Shown piece by piece: positions 12,949 to 21,098 of a stretch of DNA of 45,365 nucleotides. Position numbers and translations under genes: made by a program. This stretch comes from Bacillota bacterium. GTDB taxonomy: Bacteria; Bacillota; Desulfotomaculia; Desulfotomaculales; Ammonificaceae. The DNA is taken from the NCBI GenBank assembly GCA_020063185.1, contig JAGUUY010000141.1:1-45365 (forward strand). Direction: 5' to 3'. Numbering within the stretch: the stretch's first letter is position 1; every line of letters starts with the position of its first letter. The notes beneath the pieces are model-generated. The model saw only the letters and a list, made by a program, of their open reading frames with translations, had not been told where the DNA came from and searched no databases.

Positions 12949-13917
12949 TTATTGGATATAGATTTCCTGCCAGTAACGTAATGCGGCTCCTTGTAAGATC
13001 TGGGGTTTTACGATTTCTTTTTGCAAAACAAAATGTTCAACAGCCATTGCGGGTTGGTTATAACCGAAATAGGCTTGAATAGGGACAGTACTGGAAAACC
13101 GTGGGTTGATTTCCAGTATCTTTGGGCCCCGTTCACTTTTCCTTAACTGAATGTTACAGGGACCGATAACTCCGGAGCGTTCGGCAATTCGGCGGGACAA
13201 AACGGCTATATCCTCGTCTTGCGCTACTTCAGCGCGAAAGGTCAGCCCGGACGCCAACTCCCGGCGCAGTACAATCGCACCCCGGCTCTGGCCGGAACGG
13301 GTTACGAATACGCCGACGGTGTACTCCTGGTCGTCCGGCCCGACATACTCCTGAAGCACAACATCCTTGAGTGTACGGCCGTAAAAGTGCAACTCCTCAT
13401 CGTTTCGGATTACCAACAAACTCCGGGAGGCATACCCCCGCCTCGGTTTGATAATCAACGGAAAACCGTGCCGGGCGATGAAAGGACCCAGGTTGTCTTC
13501 AACAGGCAATATGGTTTCGGGAACCGGAAACCCTTCCCCCGACAAAAACCCGTATAGTTCCCATTTGTCGGTGGTACGCTTGATAACGCTGTCCGGACTC
13601 ACCATTACCTGGGTACCCGTTTCCCGGGTAAAATCTTCCGCTACGGGAGCGAAAACCAGCAGTTCCGGGTCCGACCCGATGAAAACTATATCCACCTTCT
13701 CCCGCCTGCAAACGACAGCCATCTCTCTTAAGTACTCCTTAATGTCCGAGGAGGCGTTCGGCACGACAAAGGCTCGGTCCACCATGTAAAGACCCGCCGA
13801 TTTGCGCTCGCAATCCGTGCCGAGAAGGCGGCAATTCAGCTGCGACATCCTTAGTGCTTTTAAGATGCCGATCCCTATTGTCTGACCCATCCCGGTTATC
13901 AAAACGTTAACGGTCAT
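12949..13917 (-). CDS. ATP-grasp enzyme (CarB-like), paralog 2
   Basis: VLITGMGQTIGIGILKALR; GFPLIIKPRRGYASRSLLVI; GPCNIQLRKSERGPKILEINPRFSSTVPIQ. Confidence 0.85.
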   Translation of the reverse strand: MTVNVLITGMGQTIGIGILKALRMSQLNCRLLGTDCERKSAGLYMVDRAFVVPNASSDIKEYLREMAVVCRREKVDIVFIGSDPELLVFAPVAEDFTRETGTQVMVSPDSVIKRTTDKWELYGFLSGEGFPVPETILPVEDNLGPFIARHGFPLIIKPRRGYASRSLLVIRNDEELHFYGRTLKDVVLQEYVGPDDQEYTVGVFVTRSGQSRGAIVLRRELASGLTFRAEVAQDEDIAVLSRRIAERSGVIGPCNIQLRKSERGPKILEINPRFSSTVPIQAYFGYNQPAMAVEHFVLQKEIVKPQILQGAALRYWQEIYIQ

Positions 13918-14620
13918 ATTCCATTCCTTTGGTACCCAGTAGTTCGCGAGTGCGGGCCCAACCGATGTTCATAGCCGCGTCCAGAACGGAAAGCTGGCTG
14001 ACAAACGGTCCGAAGAGCTGCGGGTATTGCGGGTGGGAGAAGCTGTGGTACTCAAGGACGATCCCGTGGTCTCCAAACCGGTTGTCCTGGTCTATGTAAA
14101 CCCTGGCTGTCCGGCCGGACAGGTAGTGGGTGGCGCCCACTTTTTCGCATAATTGAAGCAACAGGTCCACTTTTTTACCCTTCCCGCCTAACTCGGAGGA
14201 GAAATGAAATATGGGTGAGAGTCCAAGTTTACCGGCCAGCATTAAAATGATTGCAAGGTTCAGGTCGATCAGTTTTTCCCACCGCTTCTGGTAGATGTCC
14301 GCAAAAAGATCGATCACATCCCGGTAAAACGGAGCCTTAACGTACAGGTGTTTCATGGTCTTGAAGTGTTTCAGCGCCCAGCGTTCATCGGTGATTTCTA
14401 CATCCTTAATCAATTGATGACCGCGACCTTTCGTCAGCACGGGCACTGTCAGCCAAAAATCTCCGTTAGGGCCTTTAAGCCTGTTCCGCTGCTGCCAAGA
14501 CCTTTTTTCAAATTGCACATTATCCAGGAAAACAAAGGTATCGGCGCAGGCCATCTGGTGAAAATAACCCAGCCAGGGCAGGTAAGTGGGCTGCGTGATA
14601 ACAACCCGGTTACGCGTCAT
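13907..14620 (-). CDS. WbqC-like family protein (start trimmed from listed ORF)
   Basis: MTRNRVVITQPTYLPWLGYFHQMACADTFVFLDNVQFEKRSWQQRNRLKGPNG is the canonical WbqC-like N-terminus; the 97 preceding codons look nonhomologous. Confidence 0.85.
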   Translation of the reverse strand: MTRNRVVITQPTYLPWLGYFHQMACADTFVFLDNVQFEKRSWQQRNRLKGPNGDFWLTVPVLTKGRGHQLIKDVEITDERWALKHFKTMKHLYVKAPFYRDVIDLFADIYQKRWEKLIDLNLAIILMLAGKLGLSPIFHFSSELGGKGKKVDLLLQLCEKVGATHYLSGRTARVYIDQDNRFGDHGIVLEYHSFSHPQYPQLFGPFVSQLSVLDAAMNIGWARTRELLGTKGMEYDR

Positions 14621-14950
14621 TAATAAAAGACACCCCGCCTCAACGATGTTGGTTCGTGTCAATATATTCACTCGCGGACGTTTTTGCTTGAAGCGGCTTT
14701 TTAGGACCTTTCCTTTCCAGGTTGAAAGAGCAAATGAAGGCCGGCTATTAAACGTGTTTCTTAACCTGGCATCACAGTTTATCACCAAAAATATGACATT
14801 GGTCAAGGTTGATTCTAACTTGCGTAAACCTTCATTACACTTGGGGTCACGCCAAAGAGGCATGAAGACGCCTGCCTGCCGTGAGGTTTGGAACGGCCTG
14901 CCAGAAAACACTTTGCTTCATATAATGTAAAAAACGCCGGGAGTAGTGTT

Positions 14951-15910
14951 ATGCGAAAAGAAGCGTTCATCAGTCTCTGCCGCAGACTTTCGGGCCGCCG
15001 TGACCACACCCTGGTCAAAGAACTGTTACCCATAGTGACCGATTACTGCCGGCGCAACAAAAAGAAAAAGCTTCCGGTCGTCTGGATCGAGACGAACGAC
15101 AGCGGCGACAACAACATCTCTTTTTTAAACACCACTTACCCCTTCGCTGACAAGGTCTTTACCGATATGATCGACCTCCTGTACAGTAATACCTTCATGG
15201 CCGCGCAAGGGGGCGCCGCCCTGGAAATCCTTGACGCCGTAGCGAATAAAGAGCAATACACACTGGTGGTTGAAGGTGCTGTACCGTTGAAAGACAATGG
15301 CCTGTACACGATTATCGCGCGCACTGAGGACCGCAACATTACCGCTCTTGAAGCGGTTGCCCGCCTGGGAGCAAGTGCGGAATACGTGGTGGCCCTGGGC
15401 ACCTGCGCCAGTTTCGGCGGTCCGTCGGCGGCGCGTCCCAATATCTCGGGAAGCGCCGGCGTCAGGCAGGTGCTGGACAGGGAAGTGATCAACGTGAGCG
15501 GTTGTCCGGTTAACCCGGACTGGTTCGTGGGTACTCTGGCCCATCTAATTCTGTACGGCAGGCCGGAGCTGGACGGACTGGGCCGCCCTCTGCTTTTTTA
15601 CGGTTTTACCGTACACCGGCACTGCCAGCGCAGGTCGTATTTCGACAGGCAGGATTTCGCCGACAAACTTGGTGACATCGAATGCATGTTCTCTCTGGGT
15701 TGCGTCGGGCCCCGCACAAACGCCGACTGCCCATACAGGCAATGGACGAATTATGTAAACTGGCCGGTAAGGGCAAACACTCCCTGCATCGGCTGTACTA
15801 ATGAGGATTTTCCGGACGGTTCCACCCCGTTTTTCACCCCCCTGCCGCAAAAGCGAGCCCTGGGCAGGGGCCCTAAAGTCAGACTTGGCGCGAAAGGAAC
15901 TAAAAAATGA
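14951..15910 (+). CDS. [NiFe]-hydrogenase small subunit-like protein, no Tat signal, proximal-cluster CxxC missing
   Basis: PVVWIETNDSGDNNISFLNTTYPFADK, VVEGAVPLKDNG, VALGTCASFGGPSAA, VSGCPVNPDWFVGTL, HRHC...CMFSLGCVGPRTNADCPYRQW, NTPCIGCTNEDFPDG. Confidence 0.88.
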   Translation: MRKEAFISLCRRLSGRRDHTLVKELLPIVTDYCRRNKKKKLPVVWIETNDSGDNNISFLNTTYPFADKVFTDMIDLLYSNTFMAAQGGAALEILDAVANKEQYTLVVEGAVPLKDNGLYTIIARTEDRNITALEAVARLGASAEYVVALGTCASFGGPSAARPNISGSAGVRQVLDREVINVSGCPVNPDWFVGTLAHLILYGRPELDGLGRPLLFYGFTVHRHCQRRSYFDRQDFADKLGDIECMFSLGCVGPRTNADCPYRQWTNYVNWPVRANTPCIGCTNEDFPDGSTPFFTPLPQKRALGRGPKVRLGAKGTKK

Positions 15911-17355
15911 ATGGGAAACGAGTTGTATTCAGCCCTGTCACGCGCTTGAGCGGGCTTCTTTCCGTAGAAGTCTTTTTGGACAAAGGAAAGGTGGCGGAGG
16001 CCAACGTCAGCGGCACGATGTTCAGGGGTTACGAGTGGATAATGCGCGGTAGGCAGCTTACGGACGCCGTTTACATGACCCAGAGAATTTGCGGTATCTG
16101 TTCGCTTGCCCACGGCGCGGTTTCCAGCTATTTATTGGATAAAATCTTCGACAATGAGCTTACGGCAAATGCGCAATACCTTCGCAATATCATGTACGCC
16201 GCGGACTTTCTGCAAAATCATATCAGGCACTTCTACCTCTTCAGCCTCCCTGACTTCGTGCGGATGCCCCCCCGGCCGCCGTTTCACCGCCAGGATGTGG
16301 CCGATCTCCGGCTCAGCTCCCACGATAACCTGCGTTTAGCCGGGCATTACGCAAAGGCGGTGAAGGCGGCGCAGCAAAGCCACGAAATCTTGACCCTCTT
16401 CGGCGGGAAGGTTCCGCACCAGCACAGTTTCCTTCACGGCGGCGTCGCGACGGCCCCTACGGCAGACAAAGTAAACCGGGCTCTGGCTCTGTGCGGTGAA
16501 ATCAGTGCGTTTGTCAGAAATGCCATGATGCCGGATACGGAGCTTATCGCCGGGGTGTACAGCGACTACTTTAATATCGGCGTAACACCGCGCCGGCTGT
16601 TATCTTTCGGCCTTTTTAAATTCGGGGCTAAGAATGAAAGGCTGTGGTGGCCAAGCGGTGTGACCGACGACGGTCAAATATCCGTCCCCGACCTGCAGCA
16701 AATCAGCGAACACATCGGACGTTCATGGTTTGAGGATGCGGACAACAGTGTCGATGGACCCGGGCAAAAACCGGCGCCTCAAAAGCCGGGCGCCTATACC
16801 TGGGTGAAATCGGTAACTTACGCCGGGCGGCATTTTCAGGTCGGACCGCTGGCCCGCCTGATAATCACCGGTCAGTACCAGGGCGGTACGTCAACCATGG
16901 ACCGGATCTACGCCCGGTCTTTAGAAACGCTCTTTTTATCCGAATTATTATCCGAATGGCTCAAAAGGTTGGAACCCGGTCCCCCGCCCATTCACCAGAA
17001 ACACCAACCGGTCCTGAGCGAGGCGACCGCGGCGACGGACTCTATGCGCGGGGCACTCCTGCACAGCGCGCGGATCAGCGGGGACACCGTGACCGCATAC
17101 AACATTATCACGCCGACGGCCTGGAATTTCTCGCCCAAAAGCGCGAAAGGGGAGCGTGGCCCCGCGGAGAGCGCCCTGGTCGGCGCCGAAATTTCCAAAC
17201 CGGATATGCTGTTCACCGTACTGGGACGCATTGTCCGATCTTTTGACCCGTGCATACCCTGCGCCACTCACGTGCTCAGCCCAATGAAGCCGCCGTCGCC
17301 GGTGGATATGGAACAAAGAAACCGGCCAAGTCAGTCCTCCACCTTCTGCACGTAG
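15907..17355 (+). CDS. [NiFe]-hydrogenase large subunit, active-site Cys motifs intact
   Basis: TQRICGICSLAHG (L1), FDPCIPCATH (L2), RGALLHSARISGDTVTAYNIITPTAWNFSP; overlaps the small-subunit stop by 4 bp. Confidence 0.9.
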   Translation: MNGKRVVFSPVTRLSGLLSVEVFLDKGKVAEANVSGTMFRGYEWIMRGRQLTDAVYMTQRICGICSLAHGAVSSYLLDKIFDNELTANAQYLRNIMYAADFLQNHIRHFYLFSLPDFVRMPPRPPFHRQDVADLRLSSHDNLRLAGHYAKAVKAAQQSHEILTLFGGKVPHQHSFLHGGVATAPTADKVNRALALCGEISAFVRNAMMPDTELIAGVYSDYFNIGVTPRRLLSFGLFKFGAKNERLWWPSGVTDDGQISVPDLQQISEHIGRSWFEDADNSVDGPGQKPAPQKPGAYTWVKSVTYAGRHFQVGPLARLIITGQYQGGTSTMDRIYARSLETLFLSELLSEWLKRLEPGPPPIHQKHQPVLSEATAATDSMRGALLHSARISGDTVTAYNIITPTAWNFSPKSAKGERGPAESALVGAEISKPDMLFTVLGRIVRSFDPCIPCATHVLSPMKPPSPVDMEQRNRPSQSSTFCT

Positions 17356-19535: not shown

Positions 19536-21098
19536 TTATCTGCCGCGCAGGGTTATCATCACATACCGTGACGTCCCGTCGCCGATATCCGCCCTGAGAC
19601 GCCAGGTACCTTCGGAAAGGTCTCGGGTGACCAGGTTCAAAATGTACTGCTCGTCCTCGGCGGCGTACCTGAAAAAATTGTCCCCCGCCTTACCGTTTGA
19701 CACCGCTTCGGTCTCCTCCCCGACAACGCCGTCCGTAATTTTGCTTAGGTACAGACGGGTATTCGCGTCTGTGACGGGGTTCTGATCCGCGTCCACAAGT
19801 TGGAATTTAACCGGCACGGTACTGCCCAGTTTGAAGGTGCTGCCGCCGTCGTTATCGATCGGGGGCAGGAAACCGATGAACTCATAGCGGACAGCGGTGG
19901 AGGCCAGCCAACCGTTTTCCGTTGTCCACGGCAGGTTATCCTGTCCGTAGAAAAGACGGTTGGGCCGGTCAACGACGTAGGGGTTGTCCACAAAACCATC
20001 ACCGTCGGCATCGGGACCGGTCCAGCCGCTCCAGTAGTTGCCGCCGACCGGCTTGGGAAGGTCGAACACGTTGCCGCTGCCGATACCTGCCCTTGCCTGG
20101 ACAGTATTGTCGATGAAGTTATTGTTGAACACCTCGTTATTGCTGGAGTTCCAGAAATAGAGCCCACAGCCGTTGCCGGAGACGGTGTTCCCGCTGATCG
20201 TGCTCCCGCCGGCGTTCAAGAAATTTATCCCGTAAACCTTGTTCCCTTCCAAGGTGTTGCCGGAAATTACGTGTCCCCCGCAACCCTGGAGGTAGATCCC
20301 CGTACCGCTGTTAACCACCGTATTGTTGGTGAAATTGTTGTTCTGGGAACCCATGGCCCGGATACCGCCGGCGTTGTCGTTAACGGTGTTGCCGGTCAGC
20401 GTGTTACCGTTGCAGCCTTGGAGGTGCATGCCGAAAACAATATTCCCGTTGGCGGTGTTCTCCGCGAGGGTGTTGTTCGCGGACCCCATCAGCCAAAATC
20501 CGCAACCGCCGTTGCCGGACGCCGTGTTACCGGCAAGTGTGTTCTCACCGGAACCCGCCAGCCAGATGCCGAAAATGTTGCCGCAGGCGCTGTTACCCGT
20601 TACGCTGTTACCGGCGGCGCCCTGGACCAGGATGCCCTGGTACGAGTTATTGTCTGCCACATTATCGGCAACTGTGTTACCTGTGGAGTTAATAACACAG
20701 ATACCGATGTTGTTGTTTTCGGCGGTAATTCCGGTAAGGGTGTTGCCGCCCCCAAGGCGCACCTGGATACCGTTGGTGAATTTTTTAACCTTTAGATTTT
20801 TGATGGTTACGCCCGTTCTTCCCAGCAGGTATACGCCGTCACCGGCGCCGTTTCCCACGGTTTTGTATCCGTTGCCGTCGAGGGTGATGCCGTTGCCTGC
20901 GATCCGGATCGTCGCCTTTAAATCCTGCGTCAACACGGCCGTTCTTGTTGCCGGGTCCCAGGTACCGGCAGGCCAACTCCAACCGTTGTCACCCAGAGTT
21001 ATTGTGGAAGGCTGCGGCGCTTCCGCCTGGGCCGCGCCCGCAGTCAGCAGTCCTGCGATCAAACCCGCCAGCATAAGGACCAAAACGGTCTTTCGCAT
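19536..21098 (-). CDS. Secreted NosD-like right-handed parallel beta-helix protein with C-terminal PxKF-type domain
   Basis: Signal peptide MRKTVLVLMLAGLIAGLLTAGAAQA; at least 10 GNTxxGN/NTLxGNT rungs; C-terminal FLPPIDNDGGSTFKLGSTVPVKFQLVDADQNPV. Confidence 0.85.
   Translation of the reverse strand: MRKTVLVLMLAGLIAGLLTAGAAQAEAPQPSTITLGDNGWSWPAGTWDPATRTAVLTQDLKATIRIAGNGITLDGNGYKTVGNGAGDGVYLLGRTGVTIKNLKVKKFTNGIQVRLGGGNTLTGITAENNNIGICVINSTGNTVADNVADNNSYQGILVQGAAGNSVTGNSACGNIFGIWLAGSGENTLAGNTASGNGGCGFWLMGSANNTLAENTANGNIVFGMHLQGCNGNTLTGNTVNDNAGGIRAMGSQNNNFTNNTVVNSGTGIYLQGCGGHVISGNTLEGNKVYGINFLNAGGSTISGNTVSGNGCGLYFWNSSNNEVFNNNFIDNTVQARAGIGSGNVFDLPKPVGGNYWSGWTGPDADGDGFVDNPYVVDRPNRLFYGQDNLPWTTENGWLASTAVRYEFIGFLPPIDNDGGSTFKLGSTVPVKFQLVDADQNPVTDANTRLYLSKITDGVVGEETEAVSNGKAGDNFFRYAAEDEQYILNLVTRDLSEGTWRLRADIGDGTSRYVMITLRGR

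Follow-up and report, generated by a model that had tools for sequence, protein, structure and literature searches.

In [NiFe]-hydrogenases the proximal Fe-S cluster takes the first electron off the Ni-Fe centre, and in O2-tolerant enzymes the form of this cluster has been linked to that tolerance; its set of ligands is seen as almost fixed. Canonical group 1 and NiFeSe hydrogenases (PDB 1FRV, 1CC1) combine a four-Cys proximal cluster with Tat export and a proton-gate Glu, and this Glu of the canonical RIEGH motif belongs to the proton path solvent-Glu-Cys-Ni (PMC11212049). Single replacements of a proximal ligand are known: group 1h has Asp, and groups 1f and 2a have either Asn or Asp (PMC5364354). 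In the group 1h enzyme HofK/HofG of Ralstonia/Cupriavidus (PDB 5AA5) the second Cys of the proximal CxxC motif is Asp (CDGD) while the first is kept, giving a 3Cys/1Asp site; group 1h has no reported Tat signal (PMC5364354), and HofG reads RIVGSL, with Val at the proton gate. The group 2a enzyme Huc (PDB 7UUR, 7UTD) contains an altered Fe-S relay with three [3Fe-4S] clusters (PMC10017518), the fourth ligand rather than both CxxC cysteines being changed.

The gene pair described here (positions 14951-17355) lies on the plus strand of the window, i.e. the whole stretch of 45,365 nucleotides that was analysed. It has the fold and the Ni/Fe motifs of the canonical group 1 and NiFeSe enzymes, but differs from them in its proximal site, its N-terminus and its proton gate. 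The small subunit gene (14951..15910, +) is an intact frame of 319 aa. Its product matched TIGR00391 at 4e-65, which is above the model cut-off, carries the Pfam domains PF01058 and PF14720, and found its best solved-structure matches in 1FRV and 1CC1 (E about 1e-57). A fold search confirmed the small-subunit fold only. In a single-chain AF2 model of the small subunit, which is poor in the C-terminal half, residues 219-283 and 288-319 fall below pLDDT 50, and the geometry of the proximal site is not given. The adjoining large subunit gene (15907..17355, +; 482 aa) is likewise intact and encodes both Ni/Fe cysteine pairs, RICGIC (16084..16101, +) and DPCIPC (17245..17262, +). Judged by its sequence, the pair thus has the family matches, the Ni/Fe motifs and the medial and distal ligands of a [NiFe]-hydrogenase, with two proximal cysteines instead of four.

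The source genome comes as a fragmented 1.94 Mb draft in 242 contigs, with a completeness of about 82%. It encodes several further Oxidored_q6 family proteins, and the next-best matches to the window small subunit within it share 47%, 45% and 40% identity. A large-subunit match with one in-frame TGA on its contig C55 (L009) is probably a selenocysteine NiFeSe hydrogenase. Near the pair, the window encodes a NosD-like beta-helix protein (19536-21098, -) and a WbqC-like protein (13907-14911, -) whose gene closes a block of polysaccharide type; neither is conserved at other loci. A plasmid search returned distant homologues only.

At the site of the canonical WIxGxxCTGCSxSLLN the window small subunit reads WIETNDSGDNNISFLN, and the CxxC of the proximal cluster is replaced by D50-S-G-D53-N-N (15098..15115, +). 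The first-pass annotation of a [NiFe]-hydrogenase small subunit devoid of both proximal CxxC cysteines is upheld. It had also proposed to examine whether homologues conserve DSGDNN. A scan of a species-genome collection yielded 53 loci, hosted by Desulfotomaculia, Thermacetogenium, Syntrophaceticus, Syntrophomonadaceae, Negativicutes (Sporomusa ovata, S. malonica, Pelosinus), Heliobacterium chlorum and Halanaerobacter jeridensis; about 50 orthologues with the motif share 64-76% identity with the window small subunit. In an alignment of 50 orthologues, window sequence included, DSGDNN was present in 47, a count biased towards the motif because one of the two search patterns contained it. The three variants, GSGDDN (L057), CSGDNN (L069) and CSCDNN (L090), were found via the other pattern. 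When an even sample of 398 Bacillota genomes was searched with the whole protein, 11 genomes (that of the window included) encoded a clade member with an identity of 66% or higher. Ten of these read DSGD and one reads CSGD, the latter apparently being the same genome as L069. D53 was invariant in the DxxD-clade sequences examined, and S51 and N54 were nearly so in the orthologues. As observations on single members, L057 (GSGDDN) has lost Asp at 50 and gained it at 54 in one lineage relative to its close relatives L048 and L049 (DSGDNN), and L109 reads ETCDSGDNN, with a Cys immediately ahead of D50.

Homologues with an intact CxxC, together with signs of sequencing error or decay in the window, had been named as what would speak against the annotation. 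Instead, eight orthologues with 70-75% identity came from genomes that belong to the same genus or order, and all carry DSGDNN. Codons for D50, G52, D53, N54 and N55 vary synonymously across the orthologues, and dN/dS in the 14 closest pairs was 0.07-0.13 (median 0.115); the small-subunit gene is under strong purifying selection. In a few other clade members the large-subunit gene is interrupted, which would fit a sequencing error or a pseudogene, but with both window genes intact, the motif in about 50 species and dN/dS about 0.1 such an origin of the motif is ruled out. By sequence comparison, the substitution is a clade-wide DxxD and not peculiar to the source genome.

The origin of DxxD was traced in an alignment of 137 small subunits and a tree of 107 of these, computed with the motif columns removed and without bootstrap. 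A canonical CTGC-type group stood beside a broad CxGD/CxGN group, and DxxD was nested inside the latter (L124, labelled CxxC in the tree, reads CMTCTGN and is thus CxGN). SH-aLRT values were 95 for CxG[D/N] plus DxxD, 96 for the group joining DxxD to the CxGD sequences closest to it, and 92 for DxxD by itself. As read from this phylogeny, the order of substitution is CxxC to CxG[D/N] to DxxD, in two steps. The nearest relatives are the CxG[D/N] sisters from Bacillota (L111 at 62% identity, the others mostly at 45-54%), which share with the clade an Asp or Asn at the second position and identical other ligands, but keep the first Cys. Group 1h also has Asp at the position of D53 and keeps the first Cys, which is Asp in the DSGDNN orthologues, so that the claim that loss of both CxxC cysteines differs from the group 1h situation holds. 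HofK is distant from the window small subunit (E 1e-25, matching from residue 99 on), and in the tree it fell outside the CxG[D/N] clade, though the branch leading to it is very long (2.64). Huc is similarly remote (E 5e-25). The sister loci L025-L034 and L111-L154 make up a large, broad group in which every member sampled has the proton-gate Glu replaced, and of which no description was found in the literature searched. Many of these sisters have Asn at position 53, implying that a ligand at this position is not obligatory in them and pointing to a possible form with three ligands, perhaps [3Fe-4S].

Which residues succeeded the two lost cysteines depends on the alignment register. The first-pass annotation had given a gap-free alignment, in which the CxxC cysteines pair with S51 and N54, and had mentioned Asp/Asp as the outcome of a shift; of these the second is favoured. 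L111 reads NACSGDSIALMN; within the clade L102 has NCSGDNNIAFMN, and NDSGDNNIAFMN is found in most others, from which we conclude that the CSGD/DSGD block moved by one residue. Cys occurs exactly at 50 in two lineages (L069, L090) and in none at 51 or 54, which favours D50 and D53 over S51 and N54 as ligand heirs. L069 and L090 were placed inside the DxxD clade, and so look like returns to Cys, support for their exact places being modest (83 and 92). A gap-free site would hold a [3Fe-4S] or [2Fe-2S] cluster bound by two Cys plus water or Ser. The near invariance of S51 and N54, both aligned to CxxC positions, is in keeping with it, but the block shifts between L111 and L102 together with its Cys, and a twofold change of D50 to Cys would be odd for a non-ligand; we consider this register quite unlikely. 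D50 and D53 are likely the heirs of the two CxxC positions.

The two other proximal ligands, C152 in GTCA (15404..15406, +) and C185 in GCPVNPD (15503..15505, +), are invariant in all 50 orthologues. All distal (H222, C225, C245, C251) and medial (C260, C279, C282) ligands (15614..15796, +) are retained as well and essentially invariant in the same set, in agreement with the earlier claim that the remainder of the relay is kept. This argues against a dead relay, which would not need these ligands. Altogether, two conserved aspartates stand in for two of the four proximal cysteines, and the site seems rebuilt rather than lost. A 2Cys/2Asp proximal site in a cytoplasmic hydrogenase is most likely what these sequences encode, and we found no precedent for it, the replacements known so far being single ones. 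No description of the double loss of the CxxC cysteines was found in the open literature, a search that left most subscription journals outside its coverage and is weak evidence.

The N-terminus of the small subunit, MRKEAFISLCRR, has neither an RRxF pair nor a following hydrophobic stretch, in line with the absence of a Tat signal noted in the first-pass annotation. An RRxF[LIV]-type motif was detected by pattern search in 2 of 51 DxxD rows, at doubtful position, and in 18 of 56 CxG[D/N] sister small subunits. The clade enzyme is most likely soluble and cytoplasmic. No electron-partner gene is encoded adjacent to the pair or conserved at the loci compared. The N-terminal extension contains C10 (14978..14980, +), which is Cys in 45 of 50 orthologues, F or V in four and absent in one. 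This Cys might fold back and replace one lost cysteine, yielding a 3Cys/1Asp site, and both its conservation and the helical structure that AF2 predicted for the extension with high confidence would suit such a role. However, four members with DSGD (L064, L071, L083, L086) have F or V instead, and the N-terminal ExFxxLC is similar to RREFIKLC, the Tat n-region seen in exported relatives, so that we give a ligand role of C10 little credence. The extension is probably a vestige of such a Tat n-region with C10 as its Cys, which accounts for C10 without a cluster role.

The large subunit of the window has S15 (15949..15951, +) where canonical enzymes carry the proton-gate Glu (E28 of E. coli HyaB, Hyd-1); Glu is also absent from this position in HofG. 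The position was Glu in 17 of 17 canonical CxxC rows and in none of 22 CxG[D/N] rows, one of which is L069 from inside the DxxD clade. Among 57 rows labelled DxxD, some of them one genome read twice, it was Ser in 53 and Glu in three, one of the latter being a separate paralogue in L076; close to its DxxD pair, this locus has another hydrogenase pair on the opposite strand (L076:12923-14700, -), which reads RLEGH and DPCLAC. The Glu and the second Cys are not always lost together: Sulfobacillus acidophilus has CDGN with RIEGH intact, and L019/L056 (one genome) have DSGD with the proton-gate Glu, so that a strict coupling was rejected. The association between the changes at the proton gate and at the proximal site may stem from common descent and not from a shared mechanism. 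Absence of the Glu could mean low or no turnover.

Some large-subunit frames of the clade are not continuous. Those at L090:11006-12397 and L047:10966-12366 contain a single in-frame TAG (residues 298 and 346, respectively) and are otherwise intact, for which pyrrolysine read-through, error or decay are possible explanations. Frames at L071, L075, L078, L079, L088 and L089 are broken by apparent frameshifts or an N run (L088), which may be draft errors or decay. Ten Sporomusa-type large subunits (L063, L065, L067, L070, L074, L076, L077, L081, L082, L095) have as last residue the His after DPCxxC. These ten and L072, L080 and L084 have an additional CxxC in the large subunit (positions 131/134), close to the part that faces the proximal cluster, and some also have Cys 158.

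All four Ni/Fe cysteines are kept in the 40 complete large subunits of the clade, each pair being invariant. A divergent gene of the maturation endopeptidase type, identified by eye from GxGNxLMxDDGxG, lies upstream of the pair at 21 loci, and 13 loci include three or more hyp-type genes. The ten complete large subunits ending at His would not need cleavage, and the protease gene was found at none of their loci, compared to 17 of 30 loci encoding a large subunit with extension (Fisher p = 0.002, uncorrected for relatedness). Five of ten genomes checked contain no other PF00374 protein (G024, G033, G083, G299, G351). In four of these (G024, G033, G083, G351) HypD is encoded 1-5 kb from the pair, and the maturation system there has no other PF00374 client; in the fragmented draft G299 no HypD was seen. 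In the source genome HypD is located on another contig, and the protease has two remote homologues there, at 31% and 23%, in the genome as a whole. With HypD near the sole PF00374 hydrogenase in four genomes and the protease at 21 loci, the gene content suggests that the [NiFe] centre is probably assembled in the clade enzyme.

These findings bear on whether the proximal site is occupied at all. It could hold no cluster or a non-redox metal, the enzyme then being an H2 sensor or one that lost its Ni-Fe electron output. Half of the proximal cysteines are gone, the proton-gate Glu is absent, no redox partner gene is conserved nearby, and the ten Negativicutes large subunits end at His as does regulatory HoxC. 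On the other hand, the medial and distal ligands, needless without electron output, are fully kept, many members retain the C-terminal extension and the protease, no sensor kinase or regulator was conserved at the clade loci compared, and regulatory HoxB (group 2b) retains CxxC as CGGC, which the window small subunit does not. An empty or redox-silent site therefore appears unlikely. If the proximal cluster were missing, the distance between Ni-Fe and the medial cluster would be too long for fast tunnelling, and an Asp-bound cluster is preferred to an empty site for this reason.

On balance, we think it probable that the pair encodes an H2-active cytoplasmic [NiFe]-hydrogenase heterodimer of a Bacillota-wide clade with a rebuilt, Asp-bound proximal cluster. 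We infer the presence, type and ligands of this cluster, as well as catalysis, location and partner, from sequence. The [NiFe] centre would be assembled by the ordinary Hyp/endopeptidase route and act on H2, and the proximal site, rebuilt in two steps, would offer C152, C185, D50 and D53 as ligands. Electrons would pass from Ni-Fe to the Asp-bound proximal cluster, on to the 3-Cys medial and the His/Cys distal cluster, and finally to a soluble partner. The proximal cluster would be [4Fe-4S], less likely [3Fe-4S], with one or two Asp ligands. In combination with the missing proton-gate Glu, such a cluster would retune the first electron step in both its potential and its proton coupling. Only tentatively do we propose the most specific form of this scheme, a functional hydrogenase with a 2Cys/2Asp proximal [4Fe-4S] cluster of two-step origin, in which the proton-gate Glu is lost and one of the new carboxylates may take on part of the proton path. 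To our knowledge no [4Fe-4S] cluster with two Asp ligands has been described, and we know of no other electron-transfer cluster with a 2Cys/2Asp ligand set.

The proximal site of these enzymes would form a natural graded series, from four Cys through three Cys plus Asp or Asn to two Cys plus two Asp. The last step occurs in culturable anaerobes such as Sporomusa ovata, and the change of the proton-gate Glu is found in the same lineage as the DxxD step. This series would make it testable how far a relay cluster may leave cysteine ligation and still work.
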